Assembly (NCBI RefSeq): GCF_000003815.2 | Contig: NC_049991.1 | Coordinates: 18,818,611 to 18,882,610 of the forward strand | Source of the DNA: Branchiostoma floridae | Taxonomy: Eukaryota > Chordata > Leptocardii > Amphioxiformes > Branchiostomatidae | Length of the DNA stretch: 64,000 bases | Reading direction: 5' to 3' | In this document: positions 7,816 through 63,774 of the stretch, piece by piece | Position numbering within the stretch: position 1 is the first letter of the stretch | How the letters are laid out: the number at the start of each line of letters is the position of its first letter | Program-made: the position numbers and the translations under genes | The notes under the pieces: generated by a model | Seen by the model: the letters and a program-made list of their open reading frames with translations, nothing else | The model's database searches: none | What the model was told of the DNA's origin: nothing

Positions 7816-10800
7816 TTGTTTATTTGTAAATCCATGCCCGTAGGCTAATTGCAAGTAGCAAGTGTCTAATTCTATACACTCTGACAGCTATCTATGTGCA
7901 TGATACTACATTCTTTACTGGGAGGTTTGACTTCTTCTTTGGAGGCAGTGGCTGATGAAAAGTCCCACGTCTATAATGTTTAGTGGGTTCTGTGATTTTA
8001 ACAGGAATATAGCTTTTTTTAAGTCTATATACATTATAATATCATACAGGCCTAGAATGCATTACACTGCAATAGGGAGCATTGTATTGGAGATATGTTT
8101 GCAATTGGATGCTTTCTTTTGGGGTGGCGGATATACATGTACCTGATGCTACACTTGAGTCTTCAAATTGTGTAACACTGACTTTCTAGTCTATTAGGCT
8201 TTTCTAGTTTCAAATTACTATCCGAATGATTTTCTTACGCATACTTGTTCTGGATATTATGCTTCCTCTGAACTGCTACAGAACTGAATATCAATATTTC
8301 AACACAATAATTCAATAAACCTTTCCTTCACATTGTCATTGTCTGGCTAGAAACAAAAGGTTCCGTGAGTACTTACTTCCTGATGAACTCGGAGATGAAG
8401 GTGGTCAGCAGGAGGAACACAAAATCCACCAGCACCAGGCGGTAGATCTCCTGGCCTACATACGTCTCCCAACAGGCCTGAAAATGGACGGGACAAACAT
8501 TGTTAGGTCATTCTTGTAGACGAGAGGGTGGAGGAAGTATTGCACACCCCTCCTTCACCATAAAAAGTCATATACAGGTCAGGCAAACAGGTTGCCAAAC
8601 CCACCGGCAAATGCCTGTCTGCCTGCTCATCTGTCGAATCAACAGGAGAATCCACTAACTAAGGTCATTCTTGTAGTGAGTTTCAGCCTAGCCTGTAGCA
8701 AACCATGAACAGTTACTGACAGTTGCATTTCTGAAACATTTCAGCTGAAGAGCACTGCTGACAGAAATATAGCTAATTATTTCCCGGACTACAAAACTAT
8801 GGAACTCCCTCGACGACAACTGTTTCCCTCCTGTCTACAACTTATCAGCCTTCAAAACTAATGTCCACTGCTATCTCCGAGTACAACTGTTTCCAACTTC
8901 TTAGTTTATTGCCTTGAAGTGGTCTAATTATCTTGCCCTGAACAATCCTGTTAAAAAAAGACTCGACTTTAATTTTGCGGTAGCGGGAAAAAGAATTTTT
9001 CGCGGTGGTTTTGAGTTCGCAGTAGCACCATGCACTGTAGTCTCTTACTGCCATGGAAAAATGTTTGCGGTGGTTGAAGTGCACGGTGAAGCTGCCAACG
9101 CGAAAGTTTCTGCATTTACAGTATTGAATTTGGAAGACAGTTACATATGTGAGGAGCTAGTGAATAATGTAGACTCACCAGGTCACTGGAGGACCTGCTG
9201 ATTTTGTTGAACCAGAACCAGAGCAGCACACCCAGGATGGCCCACTTCAGCAGGATGGTTCTGTGGACAAAATTGAAAATAAATGATGATTTAGCCTTTT
9301 TCAGAAAGCTTTCACACATCTTCAGGCCTCTTTTAGCAAAGCTTAGAATAACTCTGATTGCATGATCTTTATTTGAAGATGTTCTGGTTAGCCTTCCCAT
9401 ATGACGTTCCATTCTGACTCTGAAGTGTGCTAAGTCACTCTTAGTGTGTAAAAAATCTCCTACCCAGATTTCTCTCTATGTTTTGATTTAAAGTACAAGT
9501 CTGATTGGAGTACAGTTCTCCATAAAATACTCGCTTGTTTATATATCTATCTATACACTATAAGTTTACTCTATGCAAGGCCGTGTGGACCACTTCTGGG
9601 CACTGAACTAATGAAGAGACCTGTCCTTGGTGCTGAACACACAGTGAGGTATTGTAACCCTTCTCACCTAAAGATGCTGATGTACAGCTCGTACCGTGGA
9701 TACTCATACTTTTCCAGGATATTGAGGCAACTTAGACATGTAAAGAGGTGGGGTCCTGTAGAGTAACTGCTGGGTGCTTGGCTCAGAACTGGGTTCAAAA
9801 ATGAGCACCTGGCTTCAGTTGGGGAGGCAAAAGATTTAAGGAAGGAAGTTGAGGCACCGGTAGAAATCCTTCACGATCTTAAAAGAAGGCTATGGGACAG
9901 GTAACGGTACCTACCGGTACCTACCTTATACCTTTTTAAAGAAGTTACATTTGTCTCACCTGAAGATGCTGATGTACAACTCGTGCCGAGGGTACTTGTA
10001 CTTCTCCAGACTCCCCAGGATGCTGAAGGCAAAGGGCAGGAGGAAGTTGATGGCTGAGATGCAGAGAGGCATCACCAGGAGGGTCAGGGCAGTGGTCGCA
10101 CTTCCGGCTGCCAGGTTCTAAAGAGGAGAGAACAACAAATAATATTAGGGATGGGTACCAATACCGTTTTTTCTTGTTGAACCCGTTGAAGAAACGAACC
10201 TGAAAAAATCAGGTTATATCAGCAGGTGTTCATATGTTTGGGGGCAGGTAAACAAGAGTGAAGTAGAGGAGAGATGAAAGTGATTTTTACCAACTTTCTA
10301 CAGTCATACTTGATCTAAGTTAACAGAGGCAGTCAGTATCGTTTACATAAAGACATGATTTTAAAATGCCATAAGAGTTGGATACTCCACCAAACAGATT
10401 ACTTGGCAGCAAAACAGACCATTGTTTTGAATACTAGTATCATCCATTCACAAGTTTTTACCAATGATTAGGCTTAGGCTCAGGTCCGGACCTCAACCTG
10501 ATCCTCTGGACCTGTACCTGAATCCATAGTTATGGATAATGAGTACTAACATCACTGATGAGTTTGATGATGTCCTGGTTCAGCCTCTCTGCGATGAAGA
10601 AGACCAGGTAGCAGGACCCGCCGAGCATAGCGAAGTACAGCAGCCAGGTACAGAGCCGCGTCAGCACGCGGCAGCACCGCTGTCCCCCGGTCAACTCCTG
10701 AGCCTGCTTGTGTGTCTCCGCAAGGAGCTCCTGTGTGGGACACAGAATGGTAGAGTACATGTAGTAAAGTTACAGTAGTAGTATCCAGCATGCTAGCATT

Positions 10801-39325: not shown

Positions 39326-42300
39326 GTAAGAACTTCGCCTTGGCTCAAACACACCTTGTAACTTTTTGTCAGTCTAAGTTGGTCTCATGTTATTCACCTT
39401 CTTTGGGTTGAATCTTATCATTCGACAAAAATATATATGGTTCTAAGCTAAGGCGCATTGAAAAACACCCTTAAACGATACAACGTAGCCATGGTGAAAT
39501 AAAACTTTCTCTCTTTCTCATTCTTTCTTTCTCAATCTCACTCTCTAGTTCTCTCTCTCTAGTTCTCTCTCTCTCTCTCAAGTATCCGTCTGTCTTTCTC
39601 TCTCGACCTCTCTCACACTACACGACGTTTATTTTAATGTGAAACGCTGTATTTGCAAAAAACGAACAAACCAGAATTGAAGCCATCTAGCGATAAGCAT
39701 ACAAACTGCAACTCAAAACAACCCTATTATCGATATGCAAATATCCTGTTTACTCTTCCCTAGGGGCGACCGACGGACCAATCAGCTCGCCGTCTCAGTC
39801 TGACGTCATCAGCACCAACAACATCCTCGCCTCAATGCCCAGTAAGACAAGTCAGGTGAGAAAAACTCACGTACGTAGTCTGACCAGGAAATAACCTTAG
39901 CGAGATGATCTACAGGTGTTAGACAAACCTTTTCTTCAAGACAAACCGCAAGGAAAACAGGTAGGAATGTCTCGTATGTTCATCACAAGAGTTTGGAGTC
40001 GTAATCGAAGTGAATAGCGGAGTAAATCTAAGTTTTTGATGTGGGTGAATACAGCTGACAACTCGAGGTCGGTAAACTCCAGGGTTTTGACGCTCTGCAC
40101 GTTACGTCAACTGTCTTTTTTGGGCCCGTTTTCAACGTTTTTAAAAGATGTTTAAGCTGTAGCTTTACCTGAAGTTTTGTGTACGTTTGGGGCTGCTATG
40201 ATAAACAGATCTGTGCTTTAAAACAGCGCGATCGCTCAGAAAACTCGTCTGAAAACGCGGCACGTTTGCCGGGCAGGCCGCCATATTTTCTCCGGGGTTG
40301 TCGAACTTCGGTGGCGCTGTGAGGAGGCGGGTCTTACCTGGCGTACAGGTGTGCACAGGTGTCTTCTTCTACAGCAGGATCTGGTTTACTCAACACTTTC
40401 ATCTTGCCGCATTATAGTCAGGTTTCGAAAAAATGCATTGTGTTTTGGCTTCATAGGTAAGAACTAAACTAACGGACTCAACATCGAACTGGGAAAAAAT
40501 ATCGATCTTTTCTGACCAACATTCAACTTCAACTCAGGTGTGTAACGCTAGCGTTAACAGGTTGCATCACCAGATTTACCTGCCTCAGCACCTGTGAATG
40601 TTTTGTTCACAGAACTAATTCAATTTTTGCAATTGCCATATTCAAGTATGCACATACGTTAATATTGCAAACTTTGAATTCTCACTTTTCTCAGTTATAT
40701 TTGCCATTATTGCCCATTAATGTTTTCTCACAAACTCAACAACACACATGGAATGATGGAAATTCCATAATTTTCCCGCTGACAATTGACAAGCTGTAAA
40801 TTCCGAGGTTGGCCCAAGAAGCGAGCAATCCCTTATCTTTAATTCTTTGTATGTTAGTTCTACTACAAGATATCTAAAATATACCATTTAGTAATACACA
40901 TAGCAAACTACAATGTATTGGACTAGTTAAACTATTTTGATGTAATAGTATATTTACGACAGCAGCCGACGCGACCTCTCAACAATCTCGTCCAAGCCAA
41001 GGCACTAATTCTCATCAAAACTACACAAACCACACATCAAACTATTCCTTAGAATGTGTATTTTAATATATCCCAATCCAAGATTCCTAACTTTTCAAAT
41101 TCTTGAAAATTTTTACGATTGAAAACTGTCTCACCTCGCAGTATGGCTTTGCCGTGGTCGAAAAACTTCGGGATTTTTCGTAGCTCCGCCCACAAGCCTC
41201 CTCTTGCCGGAAAAACACGAATAATACCTTATATAGGCAGGGAAACCCCTTGGCAATGCCCAAATATGGAACGGTGTCAGCGCGGCTCCGGCCCGAAATC
41301 CCGGCCCGCGCCGCCCCGGCCCGGAGACGGGGGCATATGCCGCACGTTTCCAGAAATATCTCCTTGCACTTATCATGTATTTTAAAGCCATTTACAGGTT
41401 ATTTTAACAACTAAATTCCCTTCATTTTGATGTATAGTACATGTATATTGGTCTTAAAATTGTTGAGATATCGCCACAGAAAGTGGCAACACAGGGTGTT
41501 TTCACTGATTTTGCTGGGGTCAGGTCACGTGACTGAACACCCTACTAATACTAAATGTTATACTAAGCCTCTTCCATTACTGGGAAAATATCTTTTTCAG
41601 TAATGCTGTTGAAAAAAAAAGAATACAACCAAAATGACAATAAAAATAAACTACTGGTTCAAGCTGTCCAAGATCTGTGGCACCTGTTTTTGCCATCAAC
41701 TTGATGAAGAATGATTTTAACGTTTGAACAAAGTCTTCTTTGTTACACAACCTTCCTTTAATTCTTCAGTAAACATTTTGACGACCATCTGTTGCCTTCA
41801 TCGGTACAAAATTAGGGCTTGAAATACTTTTTTTTGCATACCTGCACTGGTGCAGGTAACATTGAAAATTACCTGCACGAGACAAATTTCACCTGCACTA
41901 CTCTGAATTTAGGAAGCATGGATCATACTAAAATTGTTGGGTTCGCTTAAAAGGCTGGGCTGTCTACCAGGCCAGGCTACCTGGCCTGTCTACCTGGCCT
42001 GGCTATCACGTCAGGCTACTCAGATCCCCCCATTCATAGCCCCATCATATGGCATTCAGCTGATTGACAGGCATAGTAATTGCTAATCTCCCGACACTGC
42101 AAGTGACCTGAGGTTGGCCTGTCCACCACTGGCTGGGCCCTTCGGGAATGTGTCTGGTAGGCCTTCCTTGCAGCGTTAGGAACACAAGTACCAGTACTGA
42201 CTGTTTGTGTATGTTTGTGGGTGTGTGAATGTGGGTGTGTACATGTATGTAACGTTATGTGTGTGTGTGTGTGTAAGAATGGGCTTGCCAGCAACAGAAA

Positions 42301-45300
42301 TTTGTTTCTTTATGGAATATCTATCTTCTAGAACAGAAACCATCTCAGCTCGTGCAACAAGAAGGAAGAGCATAAATCCCTGTAAAGCTAAACTTGTACT
42401 GCCCAGGGGGGGGGGGGGGTATAATTACATTTACCTCCTTGTTCTCTATGCTAGTATGCTATGCTAGTATGACATACACAATCTCGGTAGTCACATAGCC
42501 TTTTTGAGGCTGTGGATTGTTATCCAATGTACAATTTTTTGTGTCCAGGACAGAGCCCAATCCTCTCATTCCACTGCCAATAATCTCTCCAACCCCCTTG
42601 TACAATTTGGAGTGGGGAAAGTACTGTACAGCACAAATTTTGTGTCGACTCAAAGGAATTTTGAACCCAGGACCTCTGTTTTCTAGGTCTAAACCCTAAA
42701 GCATTTACTCAACACAGTACTCAGGTACAGTACTTGAATGTGTTCCTGACATGCTGCAAGGAAGGCCTACCAGACACATTCCCGAAGGGTCCAGCCAGTG
42801 GTGGACAGGTTAACCTCAGGTCACTTGCAGGGTTAAAGATTAGCAATTACTATGCCTGTCAATCAGCTATTTTGGCTGAATGCCATATGATGGGGCTATG
42901 AATGGGGGGATCTGAGTAGCCTGACGTGATAGCCAGGCCAGGTAGACAGGCCAGGTAGCCTGGCCTGGTAGACAGCCCAGCCTTTTAAGCGAACCCAAAA
43001 TTGTTCAGTAACCTTTGCTATTTTTTCTTTTACACACTATAGGTGTTAACAGTCAATGCAGCTAATAACAATCCATATACAGCTACATCATAGGACATTT
43101 CTATTTATAAAACCCAACTACATAGACCAGTGCAGGTTGGGGGCAGGTAGACATCAGAAATACCTGCACAGCTCCAATTTCACCTACACTAACCTGCATA
43201 TGCAGGTGGTATTTCAAGCCCTGAAAATAGAACAAATACTATCAGTGCTGTATGAACTAGACAGAGTCAGTGCAATCCAAACTTGAACCCATTGTATTGT
43301 AACGTAATTACTTGACATTTGAATGTTCTCGAACATGATACATTAAGCGTCCTAGCCGCTTTGTGACATAGCGGCAAGGATGCGATAGTGTATGTTTCAT
43401 TTTGTACCGATGGTCGTCAAAACGTTCACTGAAGAATTAAAGGAAGGTTGTGTAACGTTAACGAAGAAGACATCGTTCCATTGATCTACCAATCTGATGA
43501 AACTATTTACGATTTTAACACTTGTTTCAACTTTCGTTTTTCTCCTTCGCAGTGGTCTGGCATGTCAGCACACAGACTTGGGCAGTTGGTTAATGTACTG
43601 GGAGAAAAATCAACATAATTGAGAAAAACAAAACAAAATAACAAACAAGCTGTACATCTTTGTTTTTGTTTGAACATTCGTTTATTCATGAAAGCTCAAA
43701 TCGGCCTGTAGGCCGCTTTTCATTGAGGTCATGAAGGAAGAGGCAAGGGTCAGACAGAGATATAGTTTAGATCATTTAATGTTAGATAACTAAATCTAAG
43801 TCTACATGTCCTGTGGTACCACCGTTTTTTCATCAAACTGATTTAGAAGAATGCCATTTTAAGAACGCCGTGTATATACAGACCCTGACCTCTCATTGCA
43901 AATATTATTGTCAATGATATGATGTTATACACTCCATTTTAGATGATATGTAAGTTATCCTACACCATGTATATATTTTTATGTATTGTCTGTGTTTGTC
44001 AGCAGGGCTAGCCCTTTGTAATAGCCGTAGGCTAGTTGGGCAGCCCTGGCTGTGTGTTCGCAGCTACAGCCAAACCAATAAATAAATAAATAACGCCATT
44101 TTAGCATTTACAATTTCTTCAATTTTCTCCTTCTCAGTGGTCAGGCATGTCGTCACACAGACGGGGGCGGTCAGTACGGCACCGGTCAGCGCGGTCGTCG
44201 CGGGGCGCCCGGCCGGCGGTTCTGGATGTCGAAGGTCAGGGTCAGGACGAAGCTGACCTTCTGGCGGAGGAGATCGCAGAGGGAAAGATGGCCATCAGGG
44301 ATCTCGCGAAACCCATGGAGACTAAACGAGAGATGTTGTGAGTACCGTAAACCTTGAAATATGTGTGGCCGTGTAATCGACAGGGCGTTGGGCTCAGGTC
44401 CAAGAGGTCCTGGGTTCTAACCCTACCATGTCTCCGATCTTGTGCTCTTGGGAAAGGCGCTTTACAGACTTTCCTCACTTCACTCATGATCACTGACACT
44501 GGTAAAAATGAGTACTTGGCTTTGGCTAGGGACGTCCATTGGATGGGACATTGAATTAAGACTGTTCCATGTATAATGGTCAACATAATGATTGTGGGCA
44601 CCAAAAGGAAGAAAGAAAGAAAGAAAATATATTGCCAGCCTAGGAAAAAAATTGTTGTGTTTCCAGTGTTTCAGTCCTGAAGGAATTAGGGTTGGGAAAA
44701 AGGTGATCAGATAACGACTAATTGGTCTACTAGTAGTGTAATTATTGACTGTTTATTTGTATGTGTTCAGAGAATCACACCTGGTCTAGTAGACGACATA
44801 TTGCACAGTCATTGCTGGATAAATAAACCAAAGGTGAAAGTGAAAGGAGTGAAAATGACACTCCCTGTTCCTCTGAGGGTGTGTCGGACTGTGTCACGCA
44901 ACTACATGTAGGTGGTAATACAGGTGACCACTTACAGATTGATCTGCATAGAAAAGAGGTACAAAAAGACGTAAAATTTAGTTCATTCAGGGAAATCGTC
45001 GCAGGTTTGTTTGCCTTAGCATCCAAACATACACTTTTCCTTGCATTTTTTAGCTTAATTTTTGCCTGTACATTTTTCACGTTTCACACCCCAACCCTTT
45101 GTCCCTTGTATTTTGTTTTTACAAAGCCTTGTCCCAAACCTTGCCTGCAACATACTACCCTAGATCTTTACATTGTTATATTAGTTTCTTGTTGCCCTGT
45201 GTGAGTGCTCAGTCAGTATTCTTTCTGTCTGACCAAAACGTGTGCACTTTGTTTATTGAACTTCAGTGTAAACATGGCAACTTATTTCTGTAAGGGATTT

Positions 45301-54300: not shown

Positions 54301-57300
54301 TTGTCAATAAACTCCTTGAGCTATATTAATTTTACAACTGCGGTACTCTATCTTGTGTCCCGTTAATCTAATAAAATAATTAATCCTTCAAGTCTATTTT
54401 TGGCTGGGCAACAAGTGTAATTTATTATTCTCACTGTTAAGTTATAAGTAATGAAGCTTTGGCAGGGTGTACTTTATTGAACACCAATCATGGGCAATTC
54501 GCAGTTGTTTGATTATAGAATTCCTTATACAAATTACATGACAAAGTGCATATTACGTGCCTAGCTGCAGGGGAAGAATTAATGTTAATATCAACTCTCA
54601 TATTTCCACTGGGTACCACATGAAGAAAACATTATATTAAAAAATAGAGGCCTTCTAAAGATTGTTGTGAACACATGAATATTTGATGTGTATGTATTTC
54701 TGAATGAGGATTACTGATAATTCATTGTTACATATCTCTAAATTCAGGTATTTTTCTCATGTGGCAGCATTATGGCACCCTGTGGAATTATGAGAGTTGA
54801 GTTACACAGTTCCCATCCAGTTTTGATTCCCACAAGGAAGTAAAAGGAAAATTTGTGTTATCGGGACCCTCCCTTCCATTGTTTGCTTTGTGGGCTGTTC
54901 CTTGTTGACTGTTAATACTGTTGACGGTATCTTATCAGCCCTGATACTGATAGGTGTCAGCAGTGAGTCAGGGTAAATTTTAGAAAGAGTGATTTCCTTA
55001 TTGCCCAGGTGTGTTAAATGTTACCGTCATGTCACAGGTTTTAAGGTCATCATGAGATATTTGCTTGCAGTTGAAGCTGTTATTTTGTAAGGTTGTTGAA
55101 CAATTAAGATTGCTACCAGCTATGAAAATGTTAAATGATTGTTTACATTTTTTCATATGAATAGGAATTTATGATTGCAATGTTTGCAGTCATGGTCAAT
55201 TTGCTAAAGGATATATCTGCTGTACAGCTGTGCCATGTGAGCTGATGACAGTTGCTTTTGTGTACATGTACCTCTGCTGAATGCACTCACAATCCACACA
55301 GGGAAAGTCTGTTATTTGGGTGCAGTTCCTCTTTAGGCAGACAGGAGGCATTGTTGGCTGAGGCTATTGAATTCTCCCAATGGGCCAGAGGAGATATTGG
55401 TACCACCTGAGGGGGCAAATTTTCCTTATGATTTTTAAGTAGTAGGGTATCTGAGGGATATATTTTGATATGATAGCCATCGCAAAGTGGTAGCTTTGAC
55501 CCGGCTATCTGCCCTTGACCTTTTGACCCCGATCTGGACCACGCCCTTTGATATAATTATACAAATGGGTATGTAAATCAATCAAACAATAATATTTTCA
55601 AATGAAACTTGTTAGGCTGATACAGAATGAATCAAGGATTACAGAAAACTTAATATCACTTCAATATGTTGATCCTATGAAGAGTTATGAGTCTTTGAAT
55701 TATAATTTTTGGGCAAATTTTGGATGAAAAATGTTAATTTCTACTTTTCAAAGGCTGACATTTATTCCGAACACACATTTGACCTTGTTTTGTGTTTTAA
55801 TCTGCTTTGTTGTATCATTCCCTGCATTCCAAAGTTTAAATCATGAAAATCCACCATTTCTATCTAGAGATATGAGTACCTAATTAAGTACACACCTACA
55901 GGCCTTGTGTTGGGGAAACCGTTGCTAGGGCCGTTGCTATGGAGATGCTGGGCTGCAATTCCAAGCTAAATGCAGCACAAAATCCAGTTTTTGTCGAGAA
56001 ACTTTTGTTTTGGGAGAGTAATCAGGTTTAGAATAAGCTGACCAATAAGATGTTGAGTTAATGAGTATTATGTTTATCTAATAAAAAGTTAATAAATAAT
56101 TTTATCTACTTGATAACATATGACAATGCCATATCATAAACCATAGCTGTAAGCTGTATGTACATAATGCAAAGCAACAAATTTGTCTATAGATGAACAA
56201 CCTATATGCCCTGAGTATTTACACAATATGGCATGTACAAGCACAATTATCATTATCATGTCAACTTTACATTTGATTGTTATCTATTCATCATCAGTGT
56301 CACTAGATGTGTCATCAACATCACTAGAGGAGAGTTCAATGTCCAGATCCTCTTCAGTTTCTTCCTCTTTCCTGTTACAACAGTCTTTCAATTTACACAT
56401 ATCTGTGCAGTTCAAACCATTTGCAAGACAGGTGCAGGAGGGCAGAGTACACGACCGCGAGCAGCTACATGTCAGCAGCTCCAGTACAGCAGCTGGCGCG
56501 GGAGGTGACTGTAGCCATGTGATGGAAAGATTACCATCTTCATCTAACTTCCATCCTGCATCTACTGGGCTTGGTACCTGAGGGTCGTTCTGGAGGCACC
56601 CCCTCCATATACCGGCTTGGTAGTTTGCTCGTTGAACATGCAGATGAAGGCAGTCTCGGCACGGTGGTAGTGCACTTGATTCCACATTTCCCTTTTTGGC
56701 AATGAACAAGTGGTGCCGCATCTCGTTTACGTCAGCTACAGGGGTAGACGACACGTACATCTGACAGGTGAAGCGCTCAATCCTCTTGAACAGGGTGTCA
56801 TCAGGAGACACCGTCCAGCTTTCTCCTAGTTTCTGAAATGCATTCTGGTACTCTTCATTCTTCAACATCAGCTTGAAAGCGCCCAACTTTCCACGGCCAG
56901 AAAATGCGCTAACAGTATCGCATCCTGGGAAACAACATATAGAGTGGCATTTAATCATTCACTATCAGCTGATGTATATGTGAGGTGTGTGTATTTAATT
57001 GATTGTGTCTGTTAAGCAAAATTCATGTTACAAAACTATGCAAAGTATGTGTTTAAAAATATTGTGGGAATTATCATGCAAAATGTTCTTGGTGCACATG
57101 CATAATGTACATGTAAATCTTCGTGAGGTAAGGCAATACTGGTACCCACCTGTGAATGCATGTAGTCCAACCAATGCTTTACAGACCTCTTCTCCCAATG
57201 CATCTGCCAACTTGTCAATGTCAATGAAGCGTGTTCTGTTCTTTGTGCCACACTTCTGGTACACCTTGCATGGGATACGTTTAGCGAAGGCGAGGCTGAT

Positions 57301-60300
57301 GATCATGACGTCTGTGTCTTCTGCTGTGATGACAACTGCTTCAGAACCAGACTCAGCAGCGTGGAGTGCATGGAGTAGGAGGCGCGTGTCAGCTTCTTCT
57401 TGTGAGCATTGTAGCTCCGCAATTTCCACCCATTCATCTTTAGTGAACCTGTAGCAGGCATCCTCGCAGGTAGCATACAGCGTCTTGTTCCTAAGCTTCT
57501 CTCGGTAGCTTGGCTGCTTCCATTCGTCAACCAGAAACTTGATCAGGGACGATTTGTTGTTGGAGCTGGACAGAAACTTTCTCCATTGTTTGACCTGATA
57601 TCCGCCAGTTATGGTTTTGTACTGTATTGCTGTGCTTGACCCACGCTTGAACCTCTCAGCATCTTTGATGGACTGGTCCCTGTACACGTCAAATATAACA
57701 TCGATTCTGTGACTGTTCACACCTTCCTTTAAAACTATGGATATTGTGGTGTTTGCTAGCCCAGAAAACGTCATGTTGTTGCCGTTGATCTTTTGCAGAA
57801 TGGCCATACCATCGATCAGACAGGTGGATGGAGTTGGGATATCTTCTGCTGGAGAAACACGACTCTCCAGCTCTCTTGCAAGGGCAGCTTTGTTGGTCTT
57901 ACGTAAAGTACCATCAGCATTTGCAAGAGACCATGGAAGGGGACCGAGAGGATGTGTCAGGACATCTTTAATGCGGAGCTGCCTGCTTTCTGCAATGAGG
58001 ATGATGTGCCTGAACAGGTTCCTGTCCGCCTGCAGGACAACTTCTTTGGTTTTGCCCTTTACACTGGTCTTCTTAGTGCCAATATTGGAGAATGTCTTCA
58101 GTTTTAGTTTTGTCAGCTTGTCATGGAACTTTACTTCTGGTGGGTCTTGCTCCAGTCGATTCCTTCGGAAGGAGAGATAGGCGTCCTCTCCCATTTGATG
58201 GGCGTCGGAAATATCCTTCACTATGTCGGGAGGTGCCACACTGCCCGTGGACAAGCTGACAAGGTCGGGCTCTTCTGAGGACATTGGGTTGATCCAGTTG
58301 TTCTCCATTAAATCGACCAATGAGCTGACATCGGCTTCATCCCTTCTAATGCGTGTAGTTTGTAGATCTTTATGAGAAAACTTACTACTCTTGGCACCAC
58401 TAGTCATGTCCCTTAGTTGTTTCAAGAAGAAACTCCTGTGTTCTGCTGTGAGGTAGTACTTTGATATGGCTGAGTGGTTAAGGCTGAACCCCTTTGTCCC
58501 CCCGGCGGTTTGTGTGTCTTTGTTCACCGTCTCCTCGATAGTCTGGTCAACCGGAATACGTCCAAACGGGTTCGTATGGCCAATCTGAACAGAAAAGCGT
58601 CCTCTCATAAACTCTGCATACACGTCTGGATGTTGGGATTGCAATTGTGACATCTGTGCATAGTAGTATGACAGGTACCTTGCATAGTTTACCCTGTCAT
58701 AAGCAAAGCACCATGGGATGAGCTGTCGGATGGACACTTGATGTAGCAACCAATCACCCTCCCTCGTTGCTCGAAGGAGCCCCAGCAAAATCTCTACGAG
58801 GTCAATGTAGGACATCCAATACTGTGTGAGGCGGCTGCTCTCACTTCGGAGGGTGGTGACATAGTTGTCAAACATGCACATGATTCTGTTATTTGTTGCT
58901 GACTGTAGGATGCCTAGTAAAGCTTGTTGTGATATATCATTGGTGTGGGTGTCGATGGTTTCCGTTGCTTCTTCCAGGTCAGTGAGATCCTCATTGTGGT
59001 TCTGACGCATCCAGGACAGAAACCCTGACCACACAAGCCTGAGTAAGGCCTCGTACACTAGCTTGTGGAACCTGACTGCTCTGTTGTACTTGCGTCCGTC
59101 CATCACTCCAGACACCGAACCCTCTGCTACTACCCCAGATTCAATGGCAAGGTCCCTCAGACCTGCATCCTGGAAGCGTTTTCCGATAATTGCCAGAAGT
59201 GTACAGGATGTATGGAAAGATCCCATTCTGATGACTATTGGTTTGAAAATATCTTTGTGCTTCCACATGACCTCTGTCGCCTTCGCATAGATAGCCTGAT
59301 CAAAGACACAGACGATCTTCTTTAACTGGAGCTGATCCTTAATGACTAAAGACTGCCTGAGAATCTCATACACGGTGGACATCTGTGTTGCAGGGGCATT
59401 GATGGTGGGAAGGTAGCAAACGTTGTCAGGAATTACTGGGACATCACTGCGTGATTTGATGTTGAAGCCTGTCCAGCTGCTGATACTTTGCTCTTTTTGT
59501 TTAAGTATACGAGCTATCATCCATATTATATTCTTCAGCCGTGCAGTGTGAGTGATATCTTCCTCCTCGAGGTCAACAGATTGGCATGGTTCAGGACCCT
59601 CTCTTTGGCCAACATTGTAGGTTGGCAATACTGGCTGCTGCGCATCAATGCTTCTTCTTTTTGTTTTAGTCACTGGAGGGAGGGCTTCTACTTCAGTGGA
59701 CTCTGTAACCCTGGGTTGGACAGCAATGCCATTCACACGATGAGATGTCCCACCACCACTTATGGTCTCTTCCAGCCGGTCGATGTTGTCCCAGGCAAGT
59801 GTTGTGAAAACTTGATTATGCAAGTTACTTGGAAGGGTTATGTCACCATCACCACTTGACAGCTTCTGAAGGCAAAGGGCCGTACTGATTTCCTCCATAG
59901 TACTGTAAGAAACACTGTGACCAAGTCGGTTCAGCAGTTGCACAAGCTCCACGTTTCCTGTCAGTGACTTGATGGAAAAAGCCAACGTGATGTGTTTGGG
60001 TGTTTTCACCTTTCCCTGGCTTACAGCATACACAGTGTCATATCCGAATGAGGTCACAAGTCGTTCCACCCTCTGTGATGCATCGGCATTGTTGAAACCA
60101 CCTGTCAGCAAGTAGCAAAAGAATTTGACGACTGACGGAGGGATGATGTCTCTACTTTCGTCCTCCTCTGTGATCACCGGTGGCCAGGCTTGAGGAACAT
60201 CCTGCTTTCTTATGTCGTCTCTAAGCAACAGGGCTGCCTTGGCAACAACATCTTTGTTAAGGAGTGATTTAAGAGTGTTGAGCTCCTTTTGTAAGGCCTG

Positions 60301-63300
60301 ATTCGCTTTGACAAGGTCACATCTAGATAGATTGTCAGGATAGACAAGCAGTCTGAGGTTGTCATCAGAAAAGAAGTGTAGGGTACTAGAAAACTCGCTC
60401 TCTAAAGTCCGCCGCATGTGTTTCTTGGTGGAGTCTTTGATCTGCTCTATACCAAGAGACTTCATAGACTCCACTAATCTTGAGGAGAGGTCTGTCATTC
60501 GTAGTACCCTAGGGTTGCTGAACAGATCATTCCGTATGAATTGGAACAGCTCTTGATACGCAGTATCCAGAGCAGACTCATATGGATCTTGCCTCATACT
60601 CCCTTCATTGTTGTCATCGTTGCCTGCTACACATGCGGTACTCCTAGTGTATTCTCTGTAGCATGATCTGTGGTATTGACCTTCTGCTGCTATAAGGTCC
60701 CTAGAAGCCAGACTTATCATTCTAAAATCCATTTTGGCTTCTGCAGCCTGTCGTATCTTCTCATCAGCCCTGAACTCACTGCATTGTACCAAAGGCTCTC
60801 TGGTCCTTTTTCCTGGCAGATATTTAGTTTTCTGGCAGAACATGCATTCATTCTCGTAAACCCTTGATGTTGAACATTGCTTTCTCTTACCGGTACAACT
60901 CTTTTCAAAATTGTCTTTGTCAGATTTCTCATCTGCATTCTGTTTCGCCAATCTGTCCAGATCTTTCTTCATGGTAAATATACTACGACATGTTCTGTGG
61001 TACTTGATATCTGGGATTTCGCCTTCTGACAAGCTTTTAGCAAGCTCTATGATGGGAGTGTAGTTTCTGATCTCAGCTGCTCTTAGTAGTGTTTTCCATG
61101 AGTCAATACTCTGGGGACTTATCAACTTAGATTCAGTCTCATCGTTTGGCGAACAGTGTATCACACAGTCTAAACGAGGACGTTTCGCTGCAACACACGA
61201 GTCTTTTGCACTTGCCATGTTGAAAAGTGAGGAGATAGACACAGAGAAAAGGAGGAAGACTGAGTACCTTATGGCTGTACGAATCTCTGAGGACTCCAGG
61301 TATGGTCGGCCTAGGCTGGAGGTTGGGGTGGGGTGGCGGTCACAATCTTTAGTACGATTCTTAGCATCCATGGAGCTGTTGAGATGCGTATGAAGTTGAA
61401 ACAGGACTGGCCAGTGCTAGTGGCAACGTCGCCTCCCAGTCAGAGGTATGCGAGAGGAGTGAATCCATCCAGTCCGAACACAAGAATCAAGATGCCAAGT
61501 TGTCCACGCGGAGCTTGTACACTCAACTTAACATTGTCCCGAACATTGTAGATATAACGGGCAGGCTCACACTTTGGAGAAGTTCTAATGCTAGCTAAAT
61601 ATAGTTCTAAGAAGGCACAATCGTCAACCAGACAGCATCAAGGAGAGTAGCACATGGCCAGGCCATGATGATGTGGCACTACAGCCAAAATAGAGGTACA
61701 GGGAAGATGCGACTGGAAGTAATTAAGGCTCAGGGTGTGGGGAGAGGGGTCATTTAAAGGACATCTGCAAAAGTAGGTCAATGGCAATCACAACATGAGT
61801 GGTCAACAATGTTTATTGTTCTTATGTAGCAACCAACACTGTCAAGTGTTGTTTCATAGTTGTGGGAAATAGTATGCACACTCGTGCAAGGTCTCTTATA
61901 CATGTAGGATGATAATGCTATTTAACTTATACATATAGCATGTAAGTTTTAAACTAGAATTATACTTTACCTTACATATGACACCTTGAACATGTTCTCT
62001 GTATATGTTGAAAGGTATAAGAACATAAAATATATCAAAAGACTAGGCTTTGTACTGCATTTTGCTTGGGATTGCAGCCCAGCGCCTCCATAGCAACGGC
62101 CCTAGCAACGGTTTCCCCAACACAAGGCCTGTAGGTGTGTACTTATTTAGGTACTCATATCTCTAGATAGAAATGGTGGATTTTCATGATTTAAACTTTA
62201 GAATGCAGGGAATGATACAACAAAGCAGATAAAAGCATGAAAAAAAGTCAAAAGTGAGTTTGGAATAAATGTCAGCCTTTGAAAAGTAGAAATTAACATT
62301 TTTCATCCAAAATTTGCTCAAAAATAATAATTCAAAGACTCATAACTCTTCATAGCATCAAGATATTGAAATGAAATTAAGTTTTCTGTAATCCTTGGTT
62401 CATTCTGTATCAGCCCAACAAGTTTCATTTGAAAATATTATTGTTTGATTGATTTACACACCCATTTGTGTATTTATATCAAAGGGCGTGGTCCAGATCG
62501 GGGTCAAAAGGTCAAGGGCAGATAGCCGGGTCAAAGCTACCACTTTGCGATGGCTATCATATCAAAATATATCCCTCAGATACCCTACTACCTAAAAATA
62601 ATAAGGAAAATTTGCCCCCTCAAGTGGTACTGATATGTAAAATTTGGGGGTCTGGCCCATGGACTACAATCAGCAAGATTTTTTTGGACAATTGATGGTG
62701 TATTTACTTTATGACTTTTTTGTGTGTAAATCTTACAAAAATTTTTTGTCTGTGTACAGGAGAAAGCTGCAGGGGAAAGGATTGAAAGGTTTTGGATGGA
62801 GAGTCTCTATGCAAAGGGTGAGTAAGACTGATCTCCAAGCACAACGGTCCTATGCTAACATTAGCCTAAGATAGTATAAAAAGCTGGCAAAGGAGTGAAT
62901 CTGGCCTTTGAGTTTGACTGTGTATGGCAACCGGTAGCCAAACACACTCCTAGGCCGGCTTTTCTCCTTTGCCAGCTTTTGATTCTGTCTTATGCTACTG
63001 TAACCGTACGCTTTGCTTGGAGACTCTTCTTTTTACATTTTACAACTTACATTTTCAATTTTGTTGATACTCATAATGTAACAAACAGTGTAGTGTCTGT
63101 AGTAGCATCAATTTTTTAAACATTTTTTGATTGAAAAAATTAATGTTGAGAAGATCCTCATTAGCTTATTACTATTTAGTAGTTTAAAAATGTTAAGCCA
63201 ATGGCTAGTTGCCATGGGTAACCTTGGTTAATTGTACAGCCAAAAAAAGAAATAATTGGTTGAAAAAGTTATCTGGCCTGATTTTTATATCTTTTAGTAT

Positions 63301-63430: not shown

Positions 63431-63577
63431 GTGAGTCATTCATGCAGGAATCTTACATAGTATTAACATCAACTCTCATAATTCTACCAGATGCTGCATG
63501 AGAAAAATACATTGAATTTAAGAGATGACTTACTAATGCAGAATCAGTAATCCTGAGATATATAACATTGACTATCA

Positions 63578-63774
63578 TAATTCCACCAGGTGCCATAATA
63601 CCGCCACCTCAAAAAACGATGGTATAGAGGTCTTCCCAAGATTGTCTTGAACACCAAATGTTGAATATCCTAAATGTAATACAAGTCAGATATTTGGGTG
63701 TTGAAGACAATCTTGAGAAGGCCTCTATAACAACGTTTTTGGAGGTGGCGGTATAATGGCACCTGGTGGAATTA
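63578..63774. mobile_element. Palindromic MITE, 197 bp, about 90-bp arms
   Basis: TAATTCCACCAGGTGCCATA and its inverse, with ACCGCCACCTC, TATAGAGG and AAGATTGTCTTGAACACC repeated in inverse. A hairpin of nearly the whole element is possible. Confidence 0.85.

Follow-up and report, generated by a model that had tools for sequence, protein, structure and literature searches.

An Academ-type DNA transposon of the lancelet Branchiostoma floridae with one short-spaced and one long-spaced end

A 64,000-nucleotide (nt) stretch of the Branchiostoma floridae genome (hereafter the window; C13:18818611-18882610 in the 513-Mb assembly searched) contains a DNA transposon which, as it stands, occupies 55381..62666 (7286 bp), according to homology limits with two other copies, the tip motif and the flanking sequences. 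The element very probably belongs to the XPG lineage of the Academ superfamily of cut-and-paste (DDE) transposons and moves by the mechanism proposed below. In 7 of 7 elements compared, an end with a short spacer is coupled with an end with a long one, and the difference is exactly 10 nt (11/21 in two families and 14/24 in a third). This conservation is observed directly, and it suggests that unlike ends pair.

Related copies in the genome

A search of the genome with the left inverted arm of the element gave at least 18 matches, and a search with its protein at least 46. Within the latter, the window holds the only copy of its own family (family 1) found to be open throughout, as the copies on C4 (L019, 6070 bp) and C17 (L020, 5289 bp) have stops in the frame. 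Both of these lack the segment corresponding to window 60636-61834 and both are flanked by target duplications, so the shortened form was probably moved by protein made elsewhere.

More distant open frames are 50% identical to the window protein on C4 (L031) and C19, 31% in two copies, and 25-30% in several. L031 is 8340 bp long, and its frame of 1577 codons has no intron; no ATG occurs before codon 97 of this frame. L032 (6882 bp) has the ends of the same family (family 2), and inspection by eye showed frames in it that resemble reverse transcriptase. Family 3 is represented by the two copies at 31% identity (30% over 1488 aligned positions), which are ~99% identical to one another and measure 8543 bp (duplication TAT) and 9085 bp (duplication GTA). 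The inverted arms of the 8543-bp copy extend over 587 nt at 99.8%. In addition, relatives at 25-26% were located at C6:26078526-26080106, C9:929488-932052 and C7:10622092-10623672, inside open frames of 1886-2762 codons, and possibly belong to a further Academ lineage. Other open-frame copies include those at C19:2090535 and C8:8837607.

Unequal spacers in the element ends

All 13 aligned ends, two from the window and 11 from elsewhere, share one layout, composed of an outer block, an ATAT-containing spacer, and then GTACC or a near form. On the left side of the window element, the remainder of the outer block, TGGGCCAG (55381..55388, plus strand), is followed by a short spacer of 11 nt (55389..55399, plus strand); TAGTCCA is absent here, and in L019 and L020 the block is complete at the ends of this type. 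On the right side, the outer block TAGTCCATGGGCCAG (62652..62666, minus strand) adjoins a long spacer of 21 nt (62631..62651, minus strand).

Spacers were counted from CCAG to GTACC. The loci covered by the count gave 22 rows, from which three were dropped (a reverse-strand echo at L003, and weak sites in L022 and at window 9890). The remaining 19 ends, which are not independent because several come from the same elements or family, have spacers of 11 nt (ten ends), 21 nt (eight ends) and 14 nt (one end). One short and one long end were found in all five two-ended elements of families 1 and 2 (the window, L019, L020, L031 and L032). In family 3, with end blocks TAGTACAGGAGCCAG and, as the point from which the two arms agree, GATTTCGTTGCACCC, spacers are 14/24 in one copy and 24/14 in the other under identical orientation of the gene, and the sides of short and long ends relative to the gene are thus interchangeable. 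Loci L021, L030, L033-L036, L039 and L040 have one end in the stretch read and do not bear on pairing. A 162-bp mini-element on C2 (L029 916-1077) was left out of the seven; one of its ends is of the 11-type and the other is a degraded 21-type, and it lacks a duplication.

We tentatively propose, at slightly under even confidence, that Academ transposases follow a 12/23-like rule of their own, in which a short and a long end, one helical turn apart, would be required for synapsis. Alternatively, unequal spacers may be functionless inherited leftovers, and element interiors may flip by recombination between the long inverted arms, with the tips remaining in place, an explanation we consider rather doubtful, if far from negligible. 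In the window, these arms lie at 55394..55992 (plus strand) and 62038..62636 (minus strand), and are 94% complementary over 599 nt, with 36 mismatches. Exchange of sequence between arms is seen in family 1, where just six left/right differences are fixed among seven arms when gap columns are set aside, five of them adjoining the tips, and where 13 sites have a private base common to both arms of one copy. Long inverted arms allow flipping of the interior, and this would explain the interchange of sides; the end types of the two family 3 copies do lie on opposite sides of the gene, as flipping would give, and flipping by itself preserves one end of each type. It does not account for the persistence of the 10-nt difference while the families diverged. 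The difference is exact in three families with ~30-50% protein identity and dissimilar spacer sequences, and drift should have scattered the lengths, but only 1 of 19 ends deviates (14 nt).

Gene, protein and proposed mechanism

The element carries a single gene on the minus strand, with two exons (61218..57150 and 56924..56284) that encode 1569 amino acids without an internal stop. The sequence-only reading of this DNA, which had reported long inverted repeats and a two-exon gene with an uninterrupted coding sequence of about 4.7 kb, was accurate in these respects. The start is placed at 61218, and the B. floridae protein P0001, which matches 81% of exon 1 at 99% identity, begins with the same MASAKDS; a further in-frame ATG is present upstream at 61371. 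Exon 1 (57150..61218, minus strand) includes two zinc-like motifs, a winged-helix part, the DDE RNase-H-like core with a helical insertion, and most of the XPG nuclease. It is separated by a GT-AG intron of 225 nt (56925..57149, minus strand) from exon 2 (56284..56924, minus strand), which contains the last nuclease aspartate (HAFTGCD), a C-terminal CXC motif, an acidic tail and the stop. Splicing joins HAFT to GCDTVSAF, a stretch that is continuous in relatives; L031 likewise has it within its open frame, which is uninterrupted at this place.

The protein search disclosed 263 relatives at E <= 0.001, including the lancelet proteins P0002 and P0003 (81%), and many of the best 120 of the 263 come from metagenome contigs. 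No match to the window protein was found in Pfam, in NCBIfam, or among PDB sequences at E <= 1. In fold searches, where a family absent from the listings is not thereby excluded, residues 679-1043 of the relative P0120 matched EXO1/FEN1/XPG; the nuclease acids are conserved among relatives and present in the window protein. Models show a DDE-type RNase-H-like core with a helical insertion, with RAG1 among its fold matches. Of 26 relatives, 6 matched DUF6589 (PF20231) at E <= 0.1, and the name DUF6589 is not mentioned in the literature searched. Helicase families were not detected in Pfam scans of the two exons and of relatives, nor was a helicase-bearing relative found among 8 long proteins. 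With two peptide patterns in each case, 2 matches were obtained in viral contigs and 47 in prokaryote genomes, none confirmed, and a terminal pattern had no match in viral contigs.

The nuclease fold of the relative, the DDE-type core and the 3-bp target duplications described below together point to Academ with an XPG nuclease, as the sequence-only reading had suggested. By fold, core and duplication length, Academ (XPG type) appears to be the best name. The mechanism we infer, including all chemistry, the choice of triad, the nuclease's function and the idea that unlike ends pair, is as follows. A single protein would bind both ends through its zinc and winged-helix parts and most likely assemble one short-spaced with one long-spaced end. 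The RNase-H core, with D477-D640-E895 as the candidate triad chosen among several invariant acids, would cut and join the ends and insert them with a 3-bp stagger, while the protein's own FEN/XPG domain may trim flaps or branched intermediates.

Synonymous changes make up 73 of 162 and 55 of 128 differences from the decayed copies, compared to 22% for random changes, and this excess indicates that purifying selection acted on the gene line during at least some of the period since its split from those copies. A host gene that has acquired repeats by accident, or a domesticated transposase, would also fit a single open copy in a line once under such selection. Nevertheless, the repeats, the duplications, the decayed copies with the same tips, and the number of relatives, with their frequent occurrence in metagenome contigs, make this very improbable.

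Tips and target site duplications

Homology to the fetched copies continues to 55380 on the left and to 62666-62667 on the right, that is, past the ends proposed previously (55398 and 62632). In L019 and L020, the tip sequence at both extremities is TAGTCCATGGGCCAGA, and other genomic copies also have tips TAGTCCATGGGCCAG beyond those ends. An outer 10-nt inverted match, reached in 24 of 20000 random draws (draws less than 1.5 kb apart were skipped and not replaced), had indicated the true ends ahead of confirmation by the copies.

All 6 other elements in which both tips are near-exact carry target duplications of 3 bp, which read CTA in L019, TGT in L020, GTA in L031 and TAT in L032, in addition to those of family 3. 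Weak tip pairs without a 3-bp duplication, two in L021 and two in L030, one of the latter showing a shifted ATAG, were taken as chance. The right tip of the window element is complete and ends at 62666, with CAA next (62667..62669, plus strand). The left tip begins at TGGGCCAGA (TGGGCC), with CAA immediately before it (55378..55380, plus strand). Because the same triplet adjoins TGGGCC directly and follows the whole right tip, we read the left tip as lacking 7 terminal nt (TAGTCCA) and CAA as the putative target duplication. The description of the element as intact therefore holds for its gene and not for its left tip, and with this tip short of 7 nt the element may not move unaided.

The other copies thus gave a different target length and placed the ends further out, as in one of the refuting conditions set by the sequence-only reading itself, and left the Academ superfamily standing. 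The earlier alternative, in which the element ends at 55398/62632 and ATAT is its 4-bp duplication, is refuted by the copies: ATAT, which is self-complementary, does flank the repeat as first noted and is one of the direct matches at a symmetric boundary, but copies are homologous beyond it, it is internal in 13 of 13 ends, and elsewhere 3-bp duplications lie outside TAGTCC. GTAC was also considered as a target duplication and was abandoned after the copies had been read.

Surroundings of the element

Apart from the two exons of the gene, stop-to-stop frames of the window reach at most 434 amino acids. A minus-strand frame of 434 codons at 50372-51676 matches RVT_1 (E 2.2e-27) and thus represents a fragment like a long interspersed nuclear element. 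Similar short repeats, matching in both orientations, flank the element on both sides at a distance of ~0.6-1.1 kb (54585-54804 and 63463-63774), and are probably small inverted-repeat elements. An element-like unit of ~1.08 kb at 41930-43005 has inverted arms of 131 nt, 98% complementary, with tandem CTGGCCTG-type repeats within. Finally, an inverted pair of 162 nt (85%) at 1036-1197 and 8780-8941, 7.6 kb apart, is possibly another old transposon.

Comparison with known systems

Academ elements are already known from lancelets, one report giving 21 Academ consensi for a species of this group (PMC6404401), and a bivalve library study gives 100 curated Academ elements with a mean of 5565 bp (PMC10294476). 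To call the group sparsely described, as was done at first, is thus an overstatement. A further report assigns target duplications of 3-4 bp to AcademX, and a helicase with duplications of 9-10 bp to AcademH (PMC10045372). The window element resembles AcademX in uniting a DDE-type transposase and an XPG/FEN-type nuclease and in its 3-bp duplications (the window CAA being putative). Two-block ends with 11/21 or 14/24 spacers are not described in the parts of the Academ literature searched. A spacing rule was likewise not met there, a weak negative that does not cover the main Academ paper (Kojima 2020). With AcademH it shares the superfamily name, and differs in having a nuclease and 3-bp duplications; the Pfam scans showed no family of helicases.

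The mechanism of Academ is not worked out in the excerpts of the literature searched. The copies presented here supply exact tips, the duplication length, candidate catalytic residues, and the prediction that unlike ends pair.

An RNase-H-like core with a helical insertion is also found in hAT transposons (Hermes). These produce duplications of 8 bp, in contrast to 3 bp here. RAG/Transib systems are characterized by duplications of 5 bp and by the heptamer and nonamer of recombination signal sequences. The element differs from them in its 3-bp duplications, its end blocks (TAGTCCATGGGCCAG and GTACCACC) and its own nuclease domain. The likeness lies in two end types about one helical turn apart, as in 12/23 signals, and in RAG1 being one of the core's fold matches. 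If the proposed pairing is true, a DDE lineage with a built-in FEN/XPG nuclease would have a spacing rule comparable to the one in antibody-gene recombination.
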